From assembly GCA_020425835.1 (NCBI GenBank), contig JAGQRC010000031.1, positions 1 through 13,443 on the forward strand: 13,443 bases of DNA, in the 5' to 3' direction. The translations under genes were made by a program, and so were the position numbers. How positions within the stretch are numbered: position 1 is the first letter of the stretch; every line of letters starts with the position of its first letter. This DNA comes from Planctomycetota bacterium (GTDB taxonomy: Bacteria > Planctomycetota > UBA8108 > UBA1146 > JAJFFE01). The notes under the pieces are model-generated. The model worked only from the letters and a program-made list of their open reading frames with translations, was not told where the DNA came from and did no database searches. Positions 938 to 13,408 of the stretch are shown in pieces.

Positions 938-1723
938 TCAGATGCCGTTCAGGCGGCCGCCATCGACGGGCAGACTGACTCCGCTGATGTAGGCAGCGAG
1001 CGGTGACGCGAGGAAGCAGATCGCGTACGCGGTCTCCTCGGGCATCGCGAAGCGACGCGCGGGGACGCTCTCCGCGAGCTGTGCGAGGAGTGTCTCCTTC
1101 TCGATCCCTTCGCGCTGCGCCCGGGCGGCCATCAACGAGTCGAGGCGCTGGGTCTCGGTGAAGCCGGGCAGCACGTTGTTGACGGTGATGCCGTGCGGGC
1201 CGAGTTCGCGCGACAGCGTCTTCGCCCAGCTGGCGACGGCGCCGCGCGTCGTGTTCGAGACCCCGAGGTTGGGGATGGGCTCCCGGACCGAGGTCGAGAT
1301 GATGTTGATGATCCGCCCGTAGCCCTCGCTGGTCATGCCAGGCACCAGCGCGCGCGCGAGGATCTGGTTGCAGATCAAGTGCTTCGAATAGGCGTCGAGG
1401 TACTCCTCGGGGGACGCGTCGATCGCGCGCCCACCGGGGGGGCCGCCGGTGTTGTTGATCAGGATGTGGCGGGGCGCGGCGCTGGCGTGCGCGCGAACCG
1501 ACGCGTCGAGACCCGACGGATCCGAGAAGTCGGCGACGAGGATCTCGTGCGACTGATCCGATGGCCGTGGGAGGGACGCCTGCACTTCGGTGAGGCGCTC
1601 GACGTTGCGGGCGACCAGCGTCACCTGTGCGCCGGCCGCAGCGAGTTCGTGGGCGCAGGCTCGTCCGATGCCCTGGGTGCTCCCGCAGACCACCGCGCGC
1701 TTACCCTCCAACGAGACTCTCAT
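938..1723 (-). CDS. SDR-family oxidoreductase with atypical catalytic residues
   Basis: This 261-residue Rossmann-fold protein has the SDR length and landmarks. The cofactor-binding glycine motif GSTQGIG is at 14-20, the NNTGGPPGG stretch at 90-98, the strand GRIINIISTS at 136-145, and the C-terminal ISGVSLPVDGG at 246-256. It resembles proteins annotated as 3-oxoacyl-ACP reductase-like. Where classical SDRs have YxxxK after the catalytic serine, this one reads GVSNTTRGAVASWAK (154-168), so the usual Tyr and Lys are absent at that place. A known SDR subgroup shares this NNTGGPP signature and an imperfect catalytic tetrad, so this is probably family character and not decay; the substrate is unknown. 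The start ATG overlaps the topA stop in an ATGA arrangement, which indicates co-transcription and translational coupling behind topA. Confidence 0.88.
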   Translation of the reverse strand: MRVSLEGKRAVVCGSTQGIGRACAHELAAAGAQVTLVARNVERLTEVQASLPRPSDQSHEILVADFSDPSGLDASVRAHASAAPRHILINNTGGPPGGRAIDASPEEYLDAYSKHLICNQILARALVPGMTSEGYGRIINIISTSVREPIPNLGVSNTTRGAVASWAKTLSRELGPHGITVNNVLPGFTETQRLDSLMAARAQREGIEKETLLAQLAESVPARRFAMPEETAYAICFLASPLAAYISGVSLPVDGGRLNGI

Positions 1724-4395
1724 TCGCCGCTCTTCTTCTTGGAGGCCCTCTTCTTCGCGGCCTTCTTCTTGGCGCTCTTCTTCTTGGAGGCCGCCTTCTT
1801 CGTTGCCGTCTTCTTGGAAGCCTTCTTCTTGCGCTTCTTCGCCGGGCCCTTGGCGCGACGGTCGAGGATCAGCTGCGCGGCGATCTCCACGGTCAGCGAC
1901 TGCGGGTCGGCGTCGCGCGGGATGGTCGCGTTGTACTCCCCATCGGTCACATAGGGACCGAAGCGACCGTCGAGCACCTTCAGGTCGATGCCGTCGAGCG
2001 CCTCCACCTTCTCGAAGACCTTCAGTGGCTCGGACGCCTTGCGCCGTCCGCGTTGCTTCTCCTGACTGAGGAGCTCCAACGCGCGCGCGCGGTCGATGGT
2101 GAGGATGTCGTCCTTCTCCTCGAGGCTCCGAGAGTCGTCGCCCCGCTTGATGTAGGGGCCGTACCGGCCGAGGTGGGCGACGATGTCGACGCCTTCATCG
2201 TCCTGGCCGAGTGTGCGGGGGATGGTCAGCAGCGCGACCGCCTGCTCCAGCGTGAGGGTGTCCGGGGTCATGTTCGCGATCAGGGAGACCATCTTCGGCT
2301 TCGCGTTGTCGCCGCCCTCGCCGAGCTGCACGTAGGGACCGAAGCGTCCGTTCTTCACGTAGATCGGCTCACCGGACTCCGGATGATCGCCGATCGACTT
2401 CGGGCCCTCGGCCGCCTGTCGAAGCAACTCCTTGCTCCGCTCGACGGTGAGCTCGTCCGGCGGGAGATCATCCGGGAGGTTGGCGCGATTCTCGCCGCGC
2501 TCGAGGTACGGCCCGTAGCGTCCGACCCGGACGACGATGTCCTGGCCGTCGTCGTCGACCCCGATCGGGACCGAGCAGATCGAGCGGGCGTCGATGTCCT
2601 GGACCTTGCGATCGAGGAGCGGTCGGAGGCCCTGGCCGTTCTTCCCGAAGTAGAACTCCTTGAGGTAGGGGAGCGCCTCGTGCTCTCCGCGGGCGATCGT
2701 GTCGAGGCGGTCCTCCATCTCGGCGGTGAACCCGAAGTCCACCAGCCCCGTGAAGTGCTCCTTGAGCAGCTTCACCACGGCGAATGCGATGAAGGATGGC
2801 ACCAGCGCGGTGCCCTTCTTGAAACAGTACCGGTCGAGGATCGTGCCGATGATCGACGCGTAGGTGCTCGGTCGTCCGATGCCCGACTCCTCGAGCGCTT
2901 TGACCAGCGACGCCTCGGTGTAGCGAGCCGGGGGTTGGGTGACGTGATCCTCGGCCTCGAGCTCCTCCGCCTTGACCGGGTCTCCTTCAGACAGCGCGGG
3001 CAGGATGGCCTCGCGATCGGCGAGCGCGGCTTGCGGATCGTCACTGCCCTCGACGTAGGCGCGCAGGAATCCGTGGAAGTCGATCGTGCGTCCGCTCGCG
3101 TGGAAGACGGACTCCTTGCCGTCGGTCTGCGCAGCGATCCGGACCGTCATGCGGCGTCCCTTGGCGTCCTTCATCTGGCACGCCATCGTGCGCTTCCAGA
3201 TCAGCTCGTAGAGCTTGAGCTCGTTCGCGGCGACCTTGCCCTCGAGCTCGGCCGGGCGGGGAAAGGATTCCCCGGCGGGGCGGATCGCCTCGTGAGCTTC
3301 CTGGGCGTTCTTCACCTTGTTCTTGTAGGTCCGCGGCTCGGACGGCAGGAACTCATCGCCGTACATCTGCGCGACCGCGTTGCGAGTTCCACGGATCGCC
3401 TCCGGCGAGAGCGCGACCGAGTCGGTTCGCATGTAGGTGATGTATCCGAGCTGGTAGAGCCGCTGCGCGGCGCTCATGGTCTGACGCGCACCGAAGCGCA
3501 GCTTGCGGCTCGCCTCCTGTTGGAGGGTCGACGTGGTGAACGGTGCGGCGGGCGACTGGGTGAAGGGCTTCTCCTCGGTCGAGATCACCCGGAAGTCCGC
3601 GGTCGCCAGCCCGTCGCGGAGCGCCGTCGCCGTGGCGCCGTCGAGCAGGACGACGTCGTCCCGGACGAGTCGGCCGGTGTCGGGATCGAAGTCCTTGCCC
3701 GACGCGATCCGCTTGCCGGCATGGGTCACCAGTCGGGCCGGGAAGCTCTCCGCCTTCGCGGTCGAGAACACCGCCGAAATGTCCCAGTAGTGAGCGGAGA
3801 CGAACGCCATGCGCTCCAGCTCTCGCTCCACCAACATCCGGATCGCCACGGATTGGACGCGACCCGCGGAGAGACGGGGGGCCACCTTCTTCCAGAGGAT
3901 CGGCGACACCTCGTAGCCGTAGAGCCGGTCGATGATGCGCCGCGCTTCCTGCGCCTCGACGAGGTTGTCGTCGATCGGGCGGGTCTTCTCGAGCGCGGCG
4001 TGGATCGCCTCCTTGGTGATCTCGTGGAAGACCATGCGCGAGGTCGGGACCTTCGGCTTGAGCACTTCGGCGAGGTGCCAGCTGATCGCCTCGCCTTCGC
4101 GGTCTTCATCGGTTGCGAGAAGGAGCTCGTCGACCTCCTTGAGCTTCGATCGGAGCTCCTTGATGACCTTCTTCTTGCCCTCGGTGACCACGTACAGCGG
4201 GGCGAAGTCCTCCTCGATGTTCACGCCGAGGCGGGACCACTCTTCATCCTTCACCTCGGCGGGGATCTCGGAGGCGCTCGCCGGCAGGTCGCGAATGTGG
4301 CCGACGCTGGACTCGACGACGTAGTCCTTCCCGAGGAACTTGCGGAGCGTCTTGGCCTTGGTCGGGGACTCGACGATGACGAGGCGTTTGGTCAT
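1720..4395 (-). CDS. topA: DNA topoisomerase I (type IA)
   Basis: The 891-residue enzyme relaxes negative supercoils by cutting and passing one strand through a tyrosine-DNA intermediate. The Toprim domain begins at once (MTKRLVIVESPTKAK, with Glu9) and carries the acidic TDEDREGE motif at 95-102. The active-site tyrosine is Tyr321 in ITYMRTDS. After the core come four topoisomerase C-terminal repeats marked by G-R-[YF]-G-P-Y at about residues 625, 680, 740 and 807. A roughly 44-residue Lys/Ala/Ser-rich tail follows. There are no Cys4 zinc ribbons of the kind found in Escherichia coli TopA; the layout resembles actinobacterial TopA. The ORF could be extended 62 codons upstream, but homology begins exactly at the ATG at 4395, and GGAG lies 10 nt before it. 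The SDR gene overlaps its stop by 4 bp. Confidence 0.97.
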   Translation of the reverse strand: MTKRLVIVESPTKAKTLRKFLGKDYVVESSVGHIRDLPASASEIPAEVKDEEWSRLGVNIEEDFAPLYVVTEGKKKVIKELRSKLKEVDELLLATDEDREGEAISWHLAEVLKPKVPTSRMVFHEITKEAIHAALEKTRPIDDNLVEAQEARRIIDRLYGYEVSPILWKKVAPRLSAGRVQSVAIRMLVERELERMAFVSAHYWDISAVFSTAKAESFPARLVTHAGKRIASGKDFDPDTGRLVRDDVVLLDGATATALRDGLATADFRVISTEEKPFTQSPAAPFTTSTLQQEASRKLRFGARQTMSAAQRLYQLGYITYMRTDSVALSPEAIRGTRNAVAQMYGDEFLPSEPRTYKNKVKNAQEAHEAIRPAGESFPRPAELEGKVAANELKLYELIWKRTMACQMKDAKGRRMTVRIAAQTDGKESVFHASGRTIDFHGFLRAYVEGSDDPQAALADREAILPALSEGDPVKAEELEAEDHVTQPPARYTEASLVKALEESGIGRPSTYASIIGTILDRYCFKKGTALVPSFIAFAVVKLLKEHFTGLVDFGFTAEMEDRLDTIARGEHEALPYLKEFYFGKNGQGLRPLLDRKVQDIDARSICSVPIGVDDDGQDIVVRVGRYGPYLERGENRANLPDDLPPDELTVERSKELLRQAAEGPKSIGDHPESGEPIYVKNGRFGPYVQLGEGGDNAKPKMVSLIANMTPDTLTLEQAVALLTIPRTLGQDDEGVDIVAHLGRYGPYIKRGDDSRSLEEKDDILTIDRARALELLSQEKQRGRRKASEPLKVFEKVEALDGIDLKVLDGRFGPYVTDGEYNATIPRDADPQSLTVEIAAQLILDRRAKGPAKKRKKKASKKTATKKAASKKKSAKKKAAKKRASKKKSGE
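1723..1854 (-). repeat. Degenerate repeats encoding the Lys-rich C-terminal tail of TopA
   Basis: On the plus strand this stretch is a run of imperfect cttcttctt-ggagg/cgcgg units. On the coding strand it gives repeated AAGAAGAAG blocks, translating to short KKKA/SKK-type units over the last 44 or so residues of TopA. In actinobacterial TopA a comparable basic tail is known to bind DNA and increase processivity. That role is carried over here by analogy only. Confidence 0.75.
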
Positions 4396-4645: not shown

Positions 4646-4700
4646 GGTCGGGGCGGACGTGCGGCGCGGCATCGGCCGGATCTCGATCCGCCCCCCGACC
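4646..4700 (+). other. Possible structured leader upstream of mutM
   Basis: GGTCGGGGCGG (4646-4656) can pair with CCGCCCCCCGACC (4688-4700). That gives 11 base pairs with a two-cytosine bulge. Inside the loop lies a second inverted repeat, CGGATC-tc-GATCCG (4677-4690), whose right arm competes with the outer pairing. This is a potential fold of the mutM leader or simply GC-rich coincidence. There is no T-tract, so it is not a simple terminator. Confidence 0.25.
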
Positions 4701-4753
4701 CCACGGGGATTCGGCTGGCCGCGCGCCGCGCTGAACGACTTCTCGCGGAAACC

Positions 4754-4766
4754 GAGGTGCCCGTTG
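4754..4766 (+). promoter_or_regulatory. Ribosome binding site and TTG start of mutM
   Basis: GAGGTG (4754-4759) sits 4 nt before TTG at 4764-4766. This site decides the start. Translation from TTG yields MPELPEVE, placing proline at position 2, where the family needs it as the catalytic N-terminal residue. Upstream ATG codons would bury this proline inside the protein. Confidence 0.85.
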
Positions 4767-5594
4767 CCCGAGCTCCCCGAGGTGGAGACGACCCGCCGCG
4801 GTCTCGCCGCAACACTGTTGGGTCGACGGATCGACCGGGTCGACGTCCGAGAGCGTCGCCTCCGCTGGCCGGTTACCCCTGGACTCCCACGGGTGCTCGA
4901 GGGAGGGACGGTTCGGTCGGTCGATCGCCGGGCGAAGTACCTGTTGATCTCGGTCGACCATGACGACGGCGCGCACGGCACTCTGATCGTGCACCTCGGA
5001 ATGTCGGGGAGCCTGCGATGGGAGCCGGTCGGAGCGCCGTTGCGAGTCCACGACCACCTGGAGTTTCGAGTGGGGCGACGCGTGTTGCGCTACCACGATC
5101 CCCGGCGGTTCGGTGCGGTGCTCTGGACTTCGGCGTCCCCGGAGCGCCACCGGCTGCTCGTCGGCCTCGGGCCAGAGCCGTTCGACCCCGCGTTCGACGG
5201 GCGATATCTCTACGAGCGATCCCGAGGTCGGCGCATCGCACTCCGCGATTTCCTGCTCGACGGCCGCCAGGTCGTCGGCGTGGGGAACATCTACGCGAGC
5301 GAGGCGGCCCATCGAGCGGGGATCCATCCGGGTCGCGCGGCGGGGACCATTTCGTCGAGACGATTCGACGCGTTGGTCGACGCGATCCGCGAGGTTCTCG
5401 ACGAGGCGATCCGCGCCGGCGGAACGACGCTACGAGACTATCGCGGCTCCGACGGCGCCGAGGGCGAGTTCCAACTCCGCCTGAGGGTCTACGGCCGCGA
5501 GGGTGAGCCCTGTCCGCAGTGCGCAGCCCCGGTGCGCCGGCGTGTCTCCGGTCAGCGTTCGTACTTCTATTGTCCGAAGTGTCAGCGGTTCTGA
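4764..5594 (+). CDS. mutM: Formamidopyrimidine-DNA glycosylase (Fpg)
   Basis: The 276-residue base-excision-repair enzyme removes 8-oxoguanine and formamidopyrimidines and nicks the strand by beta/delta elimination. All key landmarks are present. The N-terminus is MPELPEVE, with Pro2 as the Schiff-base nucleophile and Glu3 as the acid. RRAKYL contains the conserved Lys58. The helix-two-turn-helix segment holds GVGNIYASE. GGTTLRDY follows, and the C-terminus is a Cys4 zinc finger, CPQC...CPKCQR, containing the conserved arginine region. Length matches the family (about 270). An ORF with an ATG start begins 35 codons earlier, but that extension has no homology and would destroy the catalytic N-terminus. 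The gene converges on a small zinc-ribbon gene 36 bp downstream. Confidence 0.97.
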   Translation: MPELPEVETTRRGLAATLLGRRIDRVDVRERRLRWPVTPGLPRVLEGGTVRSVDRRAKYLLISVDHDDGAHGTLIVHLGMSGSLRWEPVGAPLRVHDHLEFRVGRRVLRYHDPRRFGAVLWTSASPERHRLLVGLGPEPFDPAFDGRYLYERSRGRRIALRDFLLDGRQVVGVGNIYASEAAHRAGIHPGRAAGTISSRRFDALVDAIREVLDEAIRAGGTTLRDYRGSDGAEGEFQLRLRVYGREGEPCPQCAAPVRRRVSGQRSYFYCPKCQRF

Positions 5595-5966: not shown

Positions 5967-6139
5967 CGCGGAGCACTCCTCGGGGGATGGACGCGTCGAT
6001 CATCGGGCCGCCACGATACCATGGAGCCCCGGCCGGAGAGGCTCGGGAAAATCGGGGTTCGCTGCCACGTCTCGAGCCGTGGTGGCGATGTTCCTCCTGG
6101 ATCCGCAAGGCGACGGGCCGTCCGAACGGCCGAGGTGAG

Positions 6140-9100
6140 ATGACCGACAGAGAACGACACGACGCCGAAGCACTGCTCGACCACATGAGCTGGGTTCATG
6201 GGTTGGCGCGCTCGCTGGTGGGGGAGGACCGAGCGGACGATCTCGCCCAAGAGGCGATGCTCGCCGCCATGGAGTCGCCGCCCCAGCACGGTGGCGGACG
6301 CGGTTGGCTCGCGACCGTGTTGCGTCGGCGTGCCGCGTCGACGTTCCGCTCCGACTCCCGCCGTCGGCGCCGCGAAGAGCGGTGCGCGCGCGCCGAGTCG
6401 ATTCCATCCGAGGAGTCGGTGTTGGAGCGGGCGGAGCTCCAGCAGGCGCTCGTCAACGCGGTGATGGAACTGCGCGATCCCTATCGGCGGATCCTGTTGC
6501 TGCGGTTCTTCGAGGGGCTGACGCCCACCGAGATCGCCGAGCAACGCGAGACGACTTCCGCGACGATTCGTAGCCAGCTCAAGCGCGCGCTCGAAGTGTT
6601 GCGGGAGCAGCTCGACCGGCGGTTCGGAAGTCGCATCGGCTGGACCGCGGTTCTCATCGCTTTCGTCGCCCTACCCCCGAGGAAGGTCGTTGCCGCAGCG
6701 GCGACCACGACTGCGACGACGTCGGTCGGCACTTCGCTGATCGGGTCGCTCGCACTAGGAGGAACAGTCATGAGTTTCAAGTCGGTCGCGGCAGCGGTCG
6801 TCATCGGCGCGGCGATCGTCGGTGGCGCGATCTTCTTCATTCAGCGGGACACGACGGAGCGAGATCTCACGCGCTCGACCTCTTCCGCGTCGGAATCGGC
6901 AGTGCGCGGTCCCGGCGAGGCTCCGGCGTCGACCGCTCTCGCGAGGCCGACGGACGGGACCGCATCGACGACGGAGGAGGAAGCACCCCCGGCGGCGATC
7001 GACACGGTGGACACCGGCATGATCGCCGGCACGGTGACCGACCTCGAGGGACAACCCCTCGAAGGAATCGTCGTCCATGCGTTCCGGGGAGAGGTGCCGA
7101 AGTTGAGCGCCTCGGAGGAACCCGAGTTCTTCGCGCTGCGTGTCGTCTCGACGTTCGTCGGCGGTGCCGACCGTTTCCCTCCGCTCGATGATCCGAAGTG
7201 GCGTGGGGTGACCGATCCGAGCGGGCGCTACGAGATTCCGGGGATCGAGCCGGGGGCCTACTCGATCGTCGCCCGCGGCGGTGGTTATCAACAGCGCGTC
7301 CTGGATGGCATCGAGGTGGCGGCGGAGCGGACCGCTGCGGGGGACTTCCAGCTGGAGCTGGGACTGGCCATCGAGGGCACCGTCTTCGGTCCGGCGGGGC
7401 AGCCGATCGCCGGGGCGATCGTGCGGAGCTCCGGGAGAGGCGGCATGGGCGATGTCGGTCTGCTCATCTCCGGCCAAGCCGGCTCGTCCCCGCCGCAAGG
7501 TGTCGTCTCCGCGGAGACCGATGCTGCCGGGCACTTTCGGCTCGAGGGCCTGAAATCCGGAAACCACCGATTGGTCGCCAGCCATCCCGACTTCGCCGAG
7601 AGCAAGGGAAGCTCGACCGCGGCGGGATCGCGGGAGATCGAGCTGACACTTCGCGCGGGCGTGACCATCACCGGAAAGGTCTTCGGTCCGGACCAGCAGC
7701 CGATCGCGGATGCGGAGGTGCTCGCGTCGAGTTTCGGAGTGGAAGGACTCGCCAGTCGCACCGTGCGCACCGATGCATACGGTGTCTACCGTTTCGAGCG
7801 CCTCGCGCCCGGGCGGCAGCGTCTCACGGCTCAGCACCCCGACTTCCCGAGCGCGCAGGGGGAACGCCTGACGACCGAGGACGGTGAAGTGCTCGAGGGC
7901 GTCGACATCGCGTTCGACGCCGGCGCGGTCGTAGAGGGCGTCGTGCTGGACCCCGCGGGAGCGCCGCTCTCTGGCGCGTCCGTCACGGTACGGAGTGCGG
8001 ATCGACGGGAAGCGATGCGCATCGCCGTCTCGGGTTTCGGTGGGTCTCGCTCGAAGGTCGGGATGACGGATGCCGAGGGTCGCTTCTCGATCGCCGGGCT
8101 GCGTGTCGACGAGTCGCGCGTGCTTCGGGCCACCCACCCGCAATACCTGATGGCCGAGATCGACGTGACACCCGGCGCCGGCGTGACCGATGTCGGAACG
8201 CTTCAGCTCGCGCGCGGTGCGACCGTCCGAGGCGTGGTGCTCGATGCGGATCGGGGTGAGCCCGTCGCCCGCGCTCAGGTTCGGCTCTCCGAGGCGCGCG
8301 AGGGGGGAGACAACCTCGAGATGCAGATCCTCGCCGACATGGGCGGTGAGTTCGCGATGCTCTCCGGCGGGAAGTCCTATTCGGCGACCACGGATGACGA
8401 GGGGCGGTACGAGATCCTCGCCGTCGAAGCCGGGGAGTTCCGACTTCACACGCGAGCCCAGGGGCACGCGCCCTACCAGAGCGATCCGTTCGGCGTTTCG
8501 GGCGACGACGTGATCGAGCGCGAAGTTCGCCTCGGGGGTGGCTTGGGCATCTCGGGCGTCGTCTTCGACACGGCGGACCGACCCGTCGTCGGAGCTCTCG
8601 TCGAGGTGAGCCGATTCGAACCGCCCAGCGTGTTCTTCCGCGCGTCGGCGAAGACCGACGAAGAGGGCCGCTTCCGTCTGAGTGGACTCGATCCCGCGAA
8701 CTACACGGTGAAGGCTTCGAGCGGAAACCTGGCGCCAGCGGTCATGGACGAGGTGGCGGCGGGCGAAGGTGACGTCCGTCTGGTCCTCGCCGAGCGCGCG
8801 GTGGTGTCCGGGATCGTGATCGACCAAGCGACCGGACAGCCGGTGCCGGAGTTCACGGTGAAGGCGGAGCGGAGCGTGTCGGTCAGCGATCACGGCAGCT
8901 TCGACTTCAACGACTTGGACTTCGGGCCGGGCTCGCGATTCAAGGATCCGGGGGGACGCTTCGTCCTCAAGGATCTCGCCCCCGGCAAGGTGGTGCTCCG
9001 CGTCACCGCGGAAGGATTCGTCGTCTCCGAGCAGGAGCTCGAAGTCCGCGCCGGCGAGAGTCAGGAGCTCGAGATCGTGCTCGACATCGGAGGCGCCGTG

Positions 9101-9712
9101 GACGGTTACGTCCGAGACTCCGATGGCAAGCCAGTGCCCGGGGTCGTGGTCCAGCGGGTGCGGAAGACCGGGAGCTCCATGGTGACCGCGAGAGTCTCCG
9201 TCGTGGCGGACGGAGATGGCGAGTCGGTCTCGAGCTTCTCGCTGGGCAGCGACCCGGGATCGAACGAGAAGACCGACGAGAACGGGTACTTCCTGTTGTC
9301 CGGGTTGCCCGTCGGCGATGTGGACCTCGAGTTCTCGAGCTCGGATTGGATCGACCAGGTCATTGAGAAGGTGTCGGTCGCCCGAGGCGTGACGCGTCGA
9401 CTGCCTCCGCTCGAGTTGTTGCGCGGCGCGACGATCCGTGGGCGCGTGCTCGCGGAAGATGGGTCTCCCGTCAAACAAGGGGGGGTCATCATCCGACTCG
9501 TTGGTGACGAGGGTGGGAAGCCCCAATGGACTCCGATCGATGCCTCCGGTGAGTTCGAGCAGAACGGGCTCGCGGCAGGCACCTACGAGGTGCAGGTGCA
9601 TCGTTGGAAGGGTTCCACCGAGGGTGGAATGCCCGAGCCACCGGATCAGGTCACGACCGAAGTGACGCTCGATCCTGAAGAGGTCGAGTCGGTGACCCTC
9701 CGCTTCGAGTAG
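6140..9712 (+). CDS. ECF-type sigma factor fused to a membrane segment and nine carboxypeptidase-regulatory-like repeats
   Basis: The product has 1190 residues. Residues 10-75 look like sigma region 2 (HGLARSLVGEDRADDLAQEA). Residues 100-160 look like region 4, with the helix-turn-helix LTPTEIAEQRETTSATIRSQL then KRALEVLREQL. A short hydrophobic stretch (167-179) and an Ala/Thr-rich linker follow. The one convincing membrane segment is at 215-234 (VAAAVVIGAAIVGGAIFFI). After an acidic, Ser/Thr/Pro-rich spacer, residues 294-1190 are tandem beta-sandwich repeats. With the sigma part in the cytoplasm, the repeats would lie outside it. Start: ATG 6140 directly follows GAGGTGAG; the ORF extends 51 codons further upstream without sigma homology. 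No anti-sigma gene is adjacent. Planctomycete ECF factors with long C-terminal extensions are known as a general theme; target promoters and the signal sensed here are unknown. A strong terminator follows the stop. Confidence 0.88.
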   Translation: MTDRERHDAEALLDHMSWVHGLARSLVGEDRADDLAQEAMLAAMESPPQHGGGRGWLATVLRRRAASTFRSDSRRRRREERCARAESIPSEESVLERAELQQALVNAVMELRDPYRRILLLRFFEGLTPTEIAEQRETTSATIRSQLKRALEVLREQLDRRFGSRIGWTAVLIAFVALPPRKVVAAAATTTATTSVGTSLIGSLALGGTVMSFKSVAAAVVIGAAIVGGAIFFIQRDTTERDLTRSTSSASESAVRGPGEAPASTALARPTDGTASTTEEEAPPAAIDTVDTGMIAGTVTDLEGQPLEGIVVHAFRGEVPKLSASEEPEFFALRVVSTFVGGADRFPPLDDPKWRGVTDPSGRYEIPGIEPGAYSIVARGGGYQQRVLDGIEVAAERTAAGDFQLELGLAIEGTVFGPAGQPIAGAIVRSSGRGGMGDVGLLISGQAGSSPPQGVVSAETDAAGHFRLEGLKSGNHRLVASHPDFAESKGSSTAAGSREIELTLRAGVTITGKVFGPDQQPIADAEVLASSFGVEGLASRTVRTDAYGVYRFERLAPGRQRLTAQHPDFPSAQGERLTTEDGEVLEGVDIAFDAGAVVEGVVLDPAGAPLSGASVTVRSADRREAMRIAVSGFGGSRSKVGMTDAEGRFSIAGLRVDESRVLRATHPQYLMAEIDVTPGAGVTDVGTLQLARGATVRGVVLDADRGEPVARAQVRLSEAREGGDNLEMQILADMGGEFAMLSGGKSYSATTDDEGRYEILAVEAGEFRLHTRAQGHAPYQSDPFGVSGDDVIEREVRLGGGLGISGVVFDTADRPVVGALVEVSRFEPPSVFFRASAKTDEEGRFRLSGLDPANYTVKASSGNLAPAVMDEVAAGEGDVRLVLAERAVVSGIVIDQATGQPVPEFTVKAERSVSVSDHGSFDFNDLDFGPGSRFKDPGGRFVLKDLAPGKVVLRVTAEGFVVSEQELEVRAGESQELEIVLDIGGAVDGYVRDSDGKPVPGVVVQRVRKTGSSMVTARVSVVADGDGESVSSFSLGSDPGSNEKTDENGYFLLSGLPVGDVDLEFSSSDWIDQVIEKVSVARGVTRRLPPLELLRGATIRGRVLAEDGSPVKQGGVIIRLVGDEGGKPQWTPIDASGEFEQNGLAAGTYEVQVHRWKGSTEGGMPEPPDQVTTEVTLDPEEVESVTLRFE
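6757..6772 (+). promoter_or_regulatory. Internal Shine-Dalgarno and in-frame ATG within the sigma fusion
   Basis: AGGAGGA (6757-6763) is followed by 6 nt and then ATG (6770-6772), in frame at codon 211. This is a better ribosome binding site than the one at the annotated start. It is written with the codons GCA CTA GGA GGA ACA, five A-ending codons in a row in a gene that strongly prefers G or C there. Initiation here would give a 980-residue protein beginning MSFKSVAAAVVIGAAIV, with a signal-anchor-like N-terminus and no sigma domains. Use of this start is an inference. Confidence 0.55.
7019..9709 (+). repeat. Nine tandem carboxypeptidase-regulatory-like protein repeats
   Basis: Repeats start at about residues 294, 409, 508, 596, 694, 802, 887, 985 and 1097 of the fusion. 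Each opens with a pattern like GxVxDxxGxPxxGAxV and continues with TDxxGRFxxxGLxxGxY, ending in a strand rich in alternating hydrophobic residues and a final L-acidic or L-basic turn. Spacing varies from about 85 to 115 residues because the central loop differs in length. This is the Ig-like/transthyretin-like fold seen in surface and exported proteins, where it mediates binding or acts as a spacer. The repeats have diverged at DNA level, so recent duplication is not indicated. Confidence 0.8.
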
Positions 9713-9734: not shown

Positions 9735-9773
9735 GGGGCGAATATCCCAGAGGGATGTTCGCCCCTTTCTCTC
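9735..9773 (+). terminator. Rho-independent terminator after the sigma fusion
   Basis: GGGGCGAATATCCC (9735-9748) pairs with GGGATGTTCGCCCC (9752-9765). The stem is 14 bp with a single T-G wobble and a 3-nt AGA loop, followed by TTTCTCTC (9766-9773). It begins 23 nt after the stop codon at 9712 and isolates the fusion gene from the downstream macrodomain gene. Confidence 0.88.
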
Positions 9774-9881: not shown

Positions 9882-10442
9882 ATGGATCGAGTTCGTCTGA
9901 TGCGTGGCGACATCACGTCGCTCGCTGTCGACGCCATCGTCAATGCCGCGAACACGAGCTTGTTGGGTGGCGGGGGAGTGGATGGTGCGATCCATCGCGC
10001 CGCGGGCCCGGAGCTCCTCGCGTCCTGCCGCGAGATCGGCGGGTGCGCGGTCGGTGAGGCGGTGATCACTCCCGGATTCCGTTTGCCCGCTCGCTTCGTG
10101 ATCCACACGGTCGGGCCGATCTGGCGCGGTGGCGCACAAGGCGAGCCCGAGCTCCTCGCGAGCTGCTACCGACGATCGCTCCATCTCGCCATCGATCGCG
10201 GTCTCCAGAGCGTCGCGTTCCCTGCGATCAGTTGCGGGGCCTACGGCTATCCGATCGACGCCGCGACCGCGATTGCTGTCCGAGAGGTTCGCACGGTGCT
10301 CGACGCGGAGCCCTTGCACGTGACCTTCATCTGTTTCGACCCCGAAGTCTATCGATCGTACGGCGACGCGCTCGCCATCGACGCGGACGACTCGCCGGTG
10401 TGCACGAAACCGAGTGGGGCTGGGACCGAGGAGGCCTCGTGA
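9882..10442 (+). CDS. ymdB: Macrodomain protein, YmdB-type O-acetyl-ADP-ribose deacetylase
   Basis: The 186-residue protein consists of one macrodomain closely resembling E. coli YmdB (177 residues). It has [20 protein letters not shown], then [28 protein letters not shown], and the phosphate-binding loop [15 protein letters not shown]. Asn24 and Asp34 correspond to the residues needed for deacetylation in this family. Such enzymes hydrolyse O-acetyl-ADP-ribose and remove mono-ADP-ribose from acidic side chains; E. coli YmdB also modulates RNase III. The last 15 or so residues are a variable tail. ATG 9882 is the only in-frame start that fits; the nearby ATGs at 9865 and 9871 are out of frame. 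The preceding ribosome binding site is weak. The stop overlaps the next gene by 4 bp. Confidence 0.92.
10428..10441 (+). promoter_or_regulatory. Ribosome binding site and GTG start of the gene after ymdB
   Basis: GAGGAGG (10428-10434) is followed by 4 nt and GTG at 10439-10441, which overlaps the ymdB TGA (GTGA). This fixes the start of the second gene and suggests translational coupling. Confidence 0.75.
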
Positions 10443-11026
10443 GTGAAGTCACCGTGGAAGAGCTCATCGACGTCGTCGATCGCGAAGGGCTTCTCGTCAA
10501 CAATGACGTTCGCTTGCCGAGCGTCGTTTCCATCGTCGCCGGTGGCCCCGTGCGCGGGTCTTGGTGGGGTCACCCCCAGGGTCACGAGATCTACGCCATG
10601 CTGCAACGAGTCGGGGAGCACCCCGACGTGTTGTCGACCAAACTCGTCTCGGGCAAGGTGACCTTCGTTCACCGACGACTGTGGCCCGACGTCTACGCCG
10701 TGGGAAGAGAGCGCGCACCGTGGCAGCTCGATCGCCTCGACCTCGACGCCAAGCGCCTTCTCGAGCGTGTCGACACCGAAGGGGTGGTCCTCTCGTCGGG
10801 GCCCCCGGCGGCTCTTCTCGAACATCTCCTCCTGGTGGTCGCCGAGCAGGTGACGGGTGATGACGGGATCCAACGCGTCCGGTTGGAGACCTGGGGCCAC
10901 TGGCGTGAGCGGGTCGGAGTCGAGCTCGAAGAGGTCGATCCGGTGGAGGCCCGCGAAGTGCTCGACGAGTTGATCGACTCCCTGAACCGCGACTACGGCG
11001 GGCGGGCGAAGCTGCCCTGGAAGTAG
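10439..11026 (+). CDS. Conserved protein of unknown function, coupled to ymdB
   Basis: The 195-residue product carries distinctive motifs. These are [16 protein letters not shown] (21-36), the tryptophan-rich [15 protein letters not shown] (41-55), and [19 protein letters not shown] (68-86), followed by a leucine- and acid-rich helical half. I recall similar SWWGHP...[11 protein letters not shown] proteins annotated only as hypothetical in several bacteria, and cannot assign a family number. There is no signal peptide or membrane segment, so it is probably cytoplasmic. The 4-bp overlap with the macrodomain gene indicates one operon, which hints at a role in ADP-ribose or nucleotide metabolism, but nothing in the sequence proves this. 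A convergent HTH-protein gene ends 24 bp downstream. Confidence 0.82.
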
Positions 11027-12464: not shown

Positions 12465-12469
12465 AGATG

Positions 12470-12483
12470 AGAGACATGTCTCT
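12470..12483. promoter_or_regulatory. Perfect 14-bp palindrome at the predicted transcription start
   Basis: AGAGACATGTCTCT is a complete palindrome. It begins 5 bp after the predicted -10 box and covers the expected +1 site, the position of a repressor operator. The divergent HTH protein is the nearest candidate to bind it. The palindrome is certain; the operator role is inference. Confidence 0.45.
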
Positions 12484-12502
12484 AGAAGTGTCCCTCCAAC
12501 GA

Positions 12503-12518
12503 GGGGAGGCTCCTCCCC
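12503..12518 (+). promoter_or_regulatory. Leader hairpin with SD-like and anti-SD-like arms
   Basis: GGGGAGG (12503-12509) and CCTCCCC (12512-12518) are perfect reverse complements separated by CT, so a 6-bp stem with a 4-nt loop is possible. It lies 20 nt before the GTG start. The CCTCC arm could also pair with the true ribosome binding site GAGG at 12530-12533, giving two alternative structures. Confidence 0.4.
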
Positions 12519-12538
12519 GCTGTGAAAGCGAGGTTCCC

Positions 12539-13408
12539 GTGCCCCGACTCGTGACGCTCCTTCTGCTGGCCGCCGCCATGGCGGTCCCCGCTGTGGTTCA
12601 GGCCCAGTCCGTGGTCTACGACAACCTCGATCCATCGGACTTCGGCGACTTCTACCCCGCGCTGTTCCAGGGCAAGGAGTTCGGCGACGAGATCACGCTC
12701 GCCCCGGGACCCCGGGCGATCACCAGCTTTCGTTTCGCTCCGGGTTCATCCCAACCGATCTCGCGGTTCGACCTGACCCTGCGCTTCCGGGAGGTCGGTT
12801 CGACGGAGCCGGGGGCCGAGATCTGGAGTGGGACGTACACGGCACTCGAGTCCTATGGCGGCATCTTCGTGATGCACGATCTCGACGTTCCCGATGTCGT
12901 GGTTCCCGATACCTTCGTGTTCACGGTGGAGGTCGACTACCAACCGGGATTCGGCGATGGCTCGGCGTACTTCAACGGTTTCGGCGGTCCGGTTGTCGGG
13001 AGCAGCGGGGCGTTCGTATGGGTCGAGGATCATCCGTCGTTCGGGCCGGGCTGGGTCGCGGCCGCCTCGCCGCCGTGCGCGGACTGTGTGTTCAACCTGG
13101 CGTGTACCTTCTTCGCGGATGGTTCCGTGCCCATCGACACCTTCCGCCGCGGGGACTCCAACGACGACGGGATGTTCGACATCGGCGACCCGGTGTTCAT
13201 CCTCGGGTCCCTCTTCGTCCCGGGCGCGGCATCGCCGTCGTGCGAGGATGCCGCGGACGCGAACGATGACGGGGTGCTCGACATCGCCGATCCGGTCTAC
13301 CAGCTGGCTGCGCTGTTCGTTCCCGGCTCGCCCGCGTTGCCCGCCACGTGTGGAGTGGACACGACGGCCGACAGCCTGGACTGCGCTGTGAGCGCCGGGT
13401 GCCCTTGA
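12539..13408 (+). CDS. Secreted protein with C-terminal dockerin/EF-hand-like repeats
   Basis: The 289-residue precursor starts with a signal peptide, MPRLVTLLLLAAAMAVPAVVQA, with cleavage likely after Ala22. Residues 24-175 form a probable beta-sandwich domain of the type VYDNL...EFGDEITLAPGPRAITSFRF, seen in many planctomycete exported proteins. After a short cysteine-containing linker (Cys180, Cys183, Cys189) come two calcium-binding-loop-like repeats, DSNDDGMFDIGD (206-217) and DANDDGVLDIAD (240-251). Each is followed by a hydrophobic helix ending LFVPG. The cysteine-rich end is CGVDTTADSLDC...GC. GTG 12539 was chosen because GAGG lies 5 nt upstream and the signal peptide begins there. 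ATG 12467 would add 24 polar residues and precedes the predicted transcript. The protein is probably surface-associated or extracellular; its ligand is unknown. Confidence 0.85.
   Translation: MPRLVTLLLLAAAMAVPAVVQAQSVVYDNLDPSDFGDFYPALFQGKEFGDEITLAPGPRAITSFRFAPGSSQPISRFDLTLRFREVGSTEPGAEIWSGTYTALESYGGIFVMHDLDVPDVVVPDTFVFTVEVDYQPGFGDGSAYFNGFGGPVVGSSGAFVWVEDHPSFGPGWVAAASPPCADCVFNLACTFFADGSVPIDTFRRGDSNDDGMFDIGDPVFILGSLFVPGAASPSCEDAADANDDGVLDIADPVYQLAALFVPGSPALPATCGVDTTADSLDCAVSAGCP

Follow-up and report, generated by a model that had tools for sequence, protein, structure and literature searches.

Codon-level conservation of an internal start signal in part of a family of putatively membrane-tethered ECF sigma factors from Planctomycetota

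Positions 1 to 13,443 of contig JAGQRC010000031.1, from the Planctomycetota bacterium assembly GCA_020425835.1, make up the stretch of DNA analysed here (termed the window). Its forward strand carries a single open frame of 1190 residues (6140-9712) in which regions 2 and 4 of an extracytoplasmic function (ECF) sigma factor, a linker, a single membrane helix and nine CarboxypepD_reg repeats follow one another. An earlier note on this DNA had described sigma regions, membrane segment and repeats as one reading frame, and the uninterrupted frame, its Pfam and NCBIfam matches and the structure models all agree with that description. Sigma70 region 2 occupies residues 14-75 (6179-6364; Pfam Sigma70_r2, 34.6 bits against a cut-off of 24) and region 4 occupies residues 102-152 (6443-6595; Pfam Sigma70_r4_2, 40.8 bits against a cut-off of 25.7), with no region 3 family among the Pfam families listed, a composition that places the protein among the ECF factors. 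The NCBIfam sigma70-ECF model likewise matches the N-terminus above its cut-off (74.3 vs 42.9), sequence matches of the sigma part in the PDB are SigK, SigW and SigE, and its fold matches are ECF sigma factors. The gene likely starts at 6140, since the first methionine of homologues aligns with M1, an invariant column of an alignment of 25 sequences (A1), and a Shine-Dalgarno-like GAGG (6132-6135; duplex energy -5.3) precedes it; the ATG at 5987, from which the frame is open, is a possible but unlikely start in view of the same alignment.

Region 4 is followed by a short hydrophobic helix (residues 165-176; 6632-6667) that is seen in the AlphaFold2 model and whose W168 is invariant in alignment A1. 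Next come an Ala/Thr/Gly-rich linker predicted to lack structure (residues 184-212, 6689-6775; predicted local distance difference test score, pLDDT, below 50) and a membrane helix (residues 215-234; 6782-6841) that is supported by the N-termini of homologues, the model and charge counts. The AlphaFold2 model of residues 1-240 shows a confident sigma fold, the short helix, the linker at low confidence and a helix of membrane-spanning length at residues 214-239. The outer part (7016-9709) consists of CarboxypepD_reg/CnaB-like repeats from about residue 293; Pfam finds nine CarboxypepD_reg stretches (322.9 bits), and the full-length model shows beta strands strung from there to the C-terminal end. 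Fold matches of the full-length model are multi-domain beta-sandwich proteins, including CnaB-type pilins and adhesins, with TM-scores of at most 0.12 against the query in the 50 rows shown, poor superpositions being expected for a flexible string of domains. A PDB sequence search with the repeat part returned no match. No anti-sigma domain was found within the protein among the 21 Pfam families listed or the best 25 of 80 NCBIfam families, a comparison that a divergent domain could escape.

A search with residues 1-260 identified 66 other proteins of similar length that join the sigma part to a long extension, at 27-60% identity to the window protein over the matched part; CarboxypepD_reg is listed for 63 of the 66, and several are annotated automatically as 'sigma-70 family RNA polymerase sigma factor'. 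Extraction from 211 DNA sources (210 loci plus the window) gave 198 fusion frames of the same order, whose median extension is 713.5 residues. Helices were called by Kyte-Doolittle hydropathy (window 18, mean 1.6 or more), which left 192 frames with a clear helix and six that were dropped; sigma starts were placed with a hidden Markov model of the family, so that some positions are off by a few codons. Net charge is higher before the helix than after it in 156 of the 192 members and lower in 16, a bias that supports an N-in/C-out helix with the sigma part inside and the repeats outside the membrane, as the earlier note had proposed.

Among the grounds for doubt that the same note had named are a sequencing frameshift joining two genes and homologues whose halves are always separate genes, and neither holds. 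Because the 66 further proteins and the 198 open frames share this layout, the fusion is neither chance nor a frameshift. Two artificially joined genes are rejected on the same counts, and the loci examined included no member in which sigma and membrane-repeat parts form two cleanly separate genes. Five short frames above 100 bits were inspected in this connection: three run off a contig end, L050 starts from a contig edge and stops early, and L162 is broken inside region 4, no repeat check having been made of the sequence behind the last two. L162 (Poly30, 489544-496544; 107.8 bits) is a family sigma frame and appears to be a decayed or shifted member. Internal stops occur in three of the matches listed from a profile search of five genomes, and all three of these matches end ahead of the helix, at profile positions 178-188.

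Family-profile matches at E 1e-15 or better in those five genomes number 79 (Saltatorellus ferox Poly30), 49, 34 (Engelhardtia mirabilis Pla86), 23 and 9 (Nannocystis), Poly30 and Pla86 being cultured strains, the weaker matches including frames without a long fusion; 15 of the 23 matches in genome G003 are strong (E 2.3e-61 or better) and eight are weak. Poly30 alone yielded 65 fusions with a helix, and 71 of 101 genomes from its order contain a match at E 1e-20 in a search that scored no more than 27 candidates in any genome. In Pla86, locus L167 (4803000-4818700) holds a tandem array of four members at intervals of about 3 kb, so that local duplication may be one way in which paralogues became so numerous. 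Four myxobacterial (Nannocystis) loci (L052, L053, L055 and L090) show the same layout together with a Met-Ser-x-x-x-Lys start before the helix.

The codons just before the helix of the window gene read CTA GGA GGA ACA GTC ATG. They contain a perfect Shine-Dalgarno (SD) sequence, AGGAGG (6757-6762; duplex energy -10.2), 7 nucleotides before an in-frame ATG (6770-6772; residue 211) that is a predicted internal start for a sigma-free isoform of 980 residues; such a protein would begin with M-S-F-K and then the hydrophobic helix, resembling a normal exported protein. Many homologues have G-G-x-x-M-x-x-K or a similar sequence directly before the helix, with valine often replacing an absent methionine, and in-frame ATGs are enriched 2-6 codons before the helix across the family. 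At 0-9 codons before the helix there are 102 such ATGs, in 97 of the 192 genes, and SD pairing before them is stronger than before 1720 other in-frame ATGs (mean energy -4.64 vs -2.88, p 3e-7). Glycine codons 3-6 positions upstream of these ATGs are GGA in 58 of 89 cases, compared to 1258 of 8097 gene-wide (p 2.5e-26); after removal of two redundant genes the figures are 57/86 and 15.0% (p 2e-26). This bias is present both in the discovery loci (23/33) and in the held-out loci (34/53 vs 747/5271 gene-wide, held-out p 1.8e-16). Where valine stands at the Met-like site it is encoded by GTG in 13 of 17 cases, compared to 3036 of 7717 (39%) gene-wide, and in genes lacking the methionine SD pairing is stronger before GTG than elsewhere (p 0.0013) and not before GTC (p 0.89) or TTG (13 cases, p 0.77).

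The reading frame of the putative starts follows the same pattern. The last 13 codons ahead of the helix contain 91 SD cores, and behind these cores start codons 4-10 nucleotides on are in frame 76 times and out of frame three times, compared to 112 and 72, respectively, for 943 cores in a control stretch further downstream. A replicate set of 36 new genes was fetched later (35 with a helix, 17 with the Met; four duplicates and the one gene without a helix were dropped), some of them from genomes that had also given discovery loci. GGA was again favoured (14/20 vs 207/1421, p 4.5e-8), SD pairing was again stronger (-5.29 vs -2.84, p 3e-5), and 26 SD cores before the helix gave 24 in-frame and no out-of-frame starts, while 153 control cores gave 21 and 13. 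An exact-pattern match to the anti-Shine-Dalgarno end of 16S RNA was present in two of the five genomes (G001 and G002) and in none of the other three. The sequences thus show that in part of the family an internal start signal, which the earlier note had missed, is kept at the level of codons and not only of residues. From the conservation of GGA and GTG and the in-frame starts behind SD cores, many family genes probably make two proteins, one with sigma part, membrane helix and repeats and the other with membrane helix and repeats alone.

Means of only -2.6 to -3.7 in the planctomycete sets indicate weak SD pairing at the sigma start, and the internal SD is the stronger of the two in G004 (-5.92 vs -2.60), in G003 (-8.48 vs -3.68), in Pla86, in a set of mixed origin and in the window gene (-10.2 vs -5.3). 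Short leaders may be one reason for the weak pairing. An expectation-maximization search for two-block motifs in the 85 nucleotides upstream yielded cctGaAcCg N12-13 CgGcATt in 55 genes of mixed origin, with a log-likelihood of 156 vs 56 and 66 in shuffles; as the shuffles were given fewer restarts (6 vs 14) and iterations, this comparison is tilted towards the real data. A near-identical motif was recovered separately in 33 genes of one genome, the two gene sets sharing TGAACC-N14-CGGCAT, while the searches in Poly30 and Pla86 also beat their shuffles, but with other, less regular motifs. Scores of 9 or more were obtained for 49 of 197 genes (12 in an upstream control, 17 in shuffles), 30 of them with a spacing of 14, and at this threshold the -10 block ends 12-18 nucleotides before a directly following ATG in 15 of 17 genes. 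A score of 10 or more was reached near the start in 25/197, compared to none in the upstream control and five in the shuffles.

The motif also stands out in whole genomes. Exact copies of TGAAYC-N14-CGGSAT occur at four sites in G003, all directly upstream of family genes; with one mismatch allowed there are 59 sites (nine for the reversed pattern), seven of which lie upstream of family genes, among the 15 strong members. Across 14 genomes, 40 exact sites were found vs eight for the reversed pattern. As far as the parts of PMC8103513 drawn on here go, AAC is common at the -35 position of ECF promoters and autoregulation is predicted for about 55% of ECF factors. The putative ECF-type promoter shared by a subset of the family, another feature that the earlier note lacked, suggests autoregulation and short leaders in these genes. 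For the window gene, which lacks this motif, autoregulation may be proposed only by analogy. Two of the four Nannocystis loci (L053 and L055) have a GCAACG-N13-CGGCAT motif near the start. At L255, a frame with FG-GAP repeats (1504-3024) begins right behind or within an exact motif copy and is a candidate regulon member from outside the family.

The neighbours of the window gene encode topA, fpg, a zinc-ribbon membrane protein, a macro-domain protein and an AlkZ-like protein. Consistent with the earlier note, which had seen no anti-sigma gene next door, none of these proteins matched an anti-sigma family, and no neighbour recurs widely across the family loci, the largest cluster of adjacent proteins being present in 13 loci. 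The sigma-repeat gene is followed after its stop codon by a terminator-like hairpin of 14 pairs with a T-rich tail (9735-9765) and is flanked on the same strand by genes related to DNA repair or ADP-ribose: fpg (4659-5591), the macro-domain gene (9882-10439) and the AlkZ-like gene (10232-11023). Further downstream on the forward strand, the product of 12467-13405 is predicted to be exported and has two Asp-rich repeats resembling dockerin, with a Pfam match below the cut-off.

Fusions of sigma factors to membrane segments are already known, IutY and SCO4117 being examples (PMC8999054); the earlier note had mentioned fusions and C-terminal extensions of ECF factors in Planctomycetes. The comparisons made here use the cited papers in part. 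The closest experimentally studied layout is that of IutY from Pseudomonas putida (ECF243), in which an ECF domain, a membrane helix and a periplasmic domain likewise form one polypeptide (PMC8999054) and the sigma part is freed by Prc and RseP (PMC8999054, PMC5411451). However, the outer part of IutY is an anti-sigma domain of siderophore surface signalling, whereas that of the window protein consists of about 900 residues of CarboxypepD_reg repeats, and the present family differs further in its copy number, which reaches the tens in several genomes, and in the internal start of many members. The terms 'internal' and 'start codon' were searched for in the main text of PMC5411451, which treats IutY, and neither was found. 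SCO4117 (ECF52) and the ECF48 and ECF53 proteins of Actinobacteria also carry a C-terminal membrane-helix fusion, with an outer domain in SCO4117, and are expected to be activated by proteolysis, but they are described with a zinc-finger anti-sigma domain (PMC8999054), whereas the window protein has no Pfam anti-sigma match. In other ECF factors with extensions, the extension takes over the role of the missing anti-sigma factor, as is proposed here, but acts on sigma or binds partners, with no membrane crossing mentioned in the parts of PMC8999054 used, while the extension of the window protein crosses the membrane. Internal in-frame starts within one gene are shared with two-polypeptide phage endolysins and ClpB isoforms (PMC9430671, PMC6168691), although neither is a sigma factor split between cytoplasmic and membrane parts. 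The family is thus set apart by its repeats, copy number, internal start and lack of a recognisable anti-sigma domain, and no paper on it or on an internal start in an ECF fusion was found among the titles and abstract openings of the open-licence literature.

Our preferred explanation, to which we give somewhat better than an even chance as a whole, is that the window gene encodes one of the many membrane-tethered ECF sigma factors of a planctomycete family that also has relatives in Nannocystis, and that in part of this family an internal start provides the tethered sigma with a sigma-free twin. The long product would hold its sigma domain at the inner face of the membrane, with a string of CnaB/transthyretin-like repeats outside, and a second ribosome-binding site and start, between linker and helix, would yield this membrane-repeat protein again, now lacking sigma. 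The long form may act as a transducer: by analogy with IutY, damage to the repeats or a signal received there would trigger cleavage in the membrane or close to it and so free sigma. The short form would be the bulk surface protein and, as a partner or competitor without sigma, would also set the threshold. Both forms would share mRNA and stop codon, with their ratio set by two different kinds of initiation, and some members probably have a sigma that turns on its own gene through an ECF-type promoter followed by a short leader. We infer the synthesis of both proteins, the autoregulation, the cleavage, the sensing and the roles of the two forms from this architecture and these signals.

Several results weigh against this explanation or narrow its reach. 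Only 72 of 227 members have both an SD and an in-frame start, while 66 have the Met without an SD and 89 have neither. Poly30 combines SD and start in only 5 of 65 members and supplies 35 of the 89 with neither; its GGA bias is marginal (5/12, p 0.055), and its internal SD is not stronger than that of the sigma start (-2.31 vs -2.61), nor is it in four Nannocystis genes. In Pla86, 8 of the 23 members examined have SD plus start. When synonymous codons were shuffled with the protein fixed, only 7 of 64 genes reached p<0.05 (Fisher 0.006) and the window gene gave p 0.196, a conservative test, since most of the SD already comes from the two glycines. On the sigma tree the SD trait shows a scattered distribution with at least 48 changes, a count seen without a shuffle control, so that it has been gained or lost often. 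As for the promoter, a motif of this type was not found at the window gene, and most members also lack it; three of the 14 genomes scanned (G004, G063 and G001) contain no exact copy. Of the 30 exact sites with loci, 22 are not at family genes and eight lie 10-67 nucleotides before a family frame, one of these belonging to a broken gene. In that gene (L251, 1158-1523, reverse strand) the promoter motif and region 2 of sigma are still present, but the frame then stops early and gives way to other sequence. By the counts of Met and SD, the internal start is a frequent and not a universal feature of the family; in G004, SD and start are found together in 14 of the 33 members examined. In Poly30, 25 of the 65 members keep a Met before the helix without an SD, often as Met-Lys-Lys, so that this start, if used, would be found in another way.

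The members with neither Met nor SD (89/227) and the scatter of the trait on the tree would also fit a gene with a single product, an IutY-like tethered sigma factor in which the internal SD and ATG are relics of adjacent sigma and membrane-protein genes that became fused, and fusion of a sigma factor with its membrane regulator is one origin proposed for such proteins in the part of PMC8999054 used here. Relic codons should decay, yet GGA is retained at 57/86 positions and valine is mostly GTG despite 27-60% identity, and no clean two-gene version was seen among the loci examined; we consider this account rather unlikely. The conserved element could instead make ribosomes pause and so aid insertion of the membrane helix, without any initiation. 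It lies about 10 codons before the helix, and for membrane proteins of E. coli it has been proposed that SD-like sequences cause pauses near membrane segments. A pause, however, needs no spaced start codon, yet 76 of 79 start-codon hits are in frame, as are all 24 in the replicate. In addition, eight kinase-helix proteins from the same genomes have no SD core at the equivalent place (30 loci gave 13 usable frames, eight of them with a helix at a threshold of 1.8, with no SD core and one Met), a sample too small to decide the matter alone. A pause-only reading of the internal SD is thus very unlikely.

A different division of labour would have the product be mainly a surface repeat protein, its sigma part being a weakly translated autoregulator that tracks synthesis or export of the protein with no outside ligand. 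Such a role would agree with the internal SD being on average stronger than that of the sigma start in G004, G003, Pla86, the mixed set and the window, with the CnaB-type pilins and adhesins among the best fold matches of the full-length model, and with the location of all four exact motif sites of G003 at family genes. Nevertheless, the internal SD is not the stronger one in Poly30 and Nannocystis, and a weak SD at the sigma start is no proof of weak translation, since short leaders would make an SD there unnecessary. Moreover, the regulon may reach beyond the family, as 22 of the 30 motif loci lie elsewhere, for example at the FG-GAP protein of L255. We regard this division of labour as doubtful.

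Coming back to the preferred explanation of a tethered sigma factor with a sigma-free twin, we find the arguments evenly balanced for its broadest form, in which one gene gives both products, many copies per genome make up a self-regulating surface repertoire, and the signal is set by the isoform ratio instead of an anti-sigma factor. Should both products be made, sensor, sigma factor and sigma-free competitor of an ECF system would be encoded by one gene with no recognisable anti-sigma. This would offer a testable account of the control of planctomycete sigma factors with long extensions and of the use that a genome makes of tens of similar layouts. It would also be a warning that, behind the automatic annotation 'sigma-70 family RNA polymerase sigma factor', a surface-protein family of equal size may go unnoticed.

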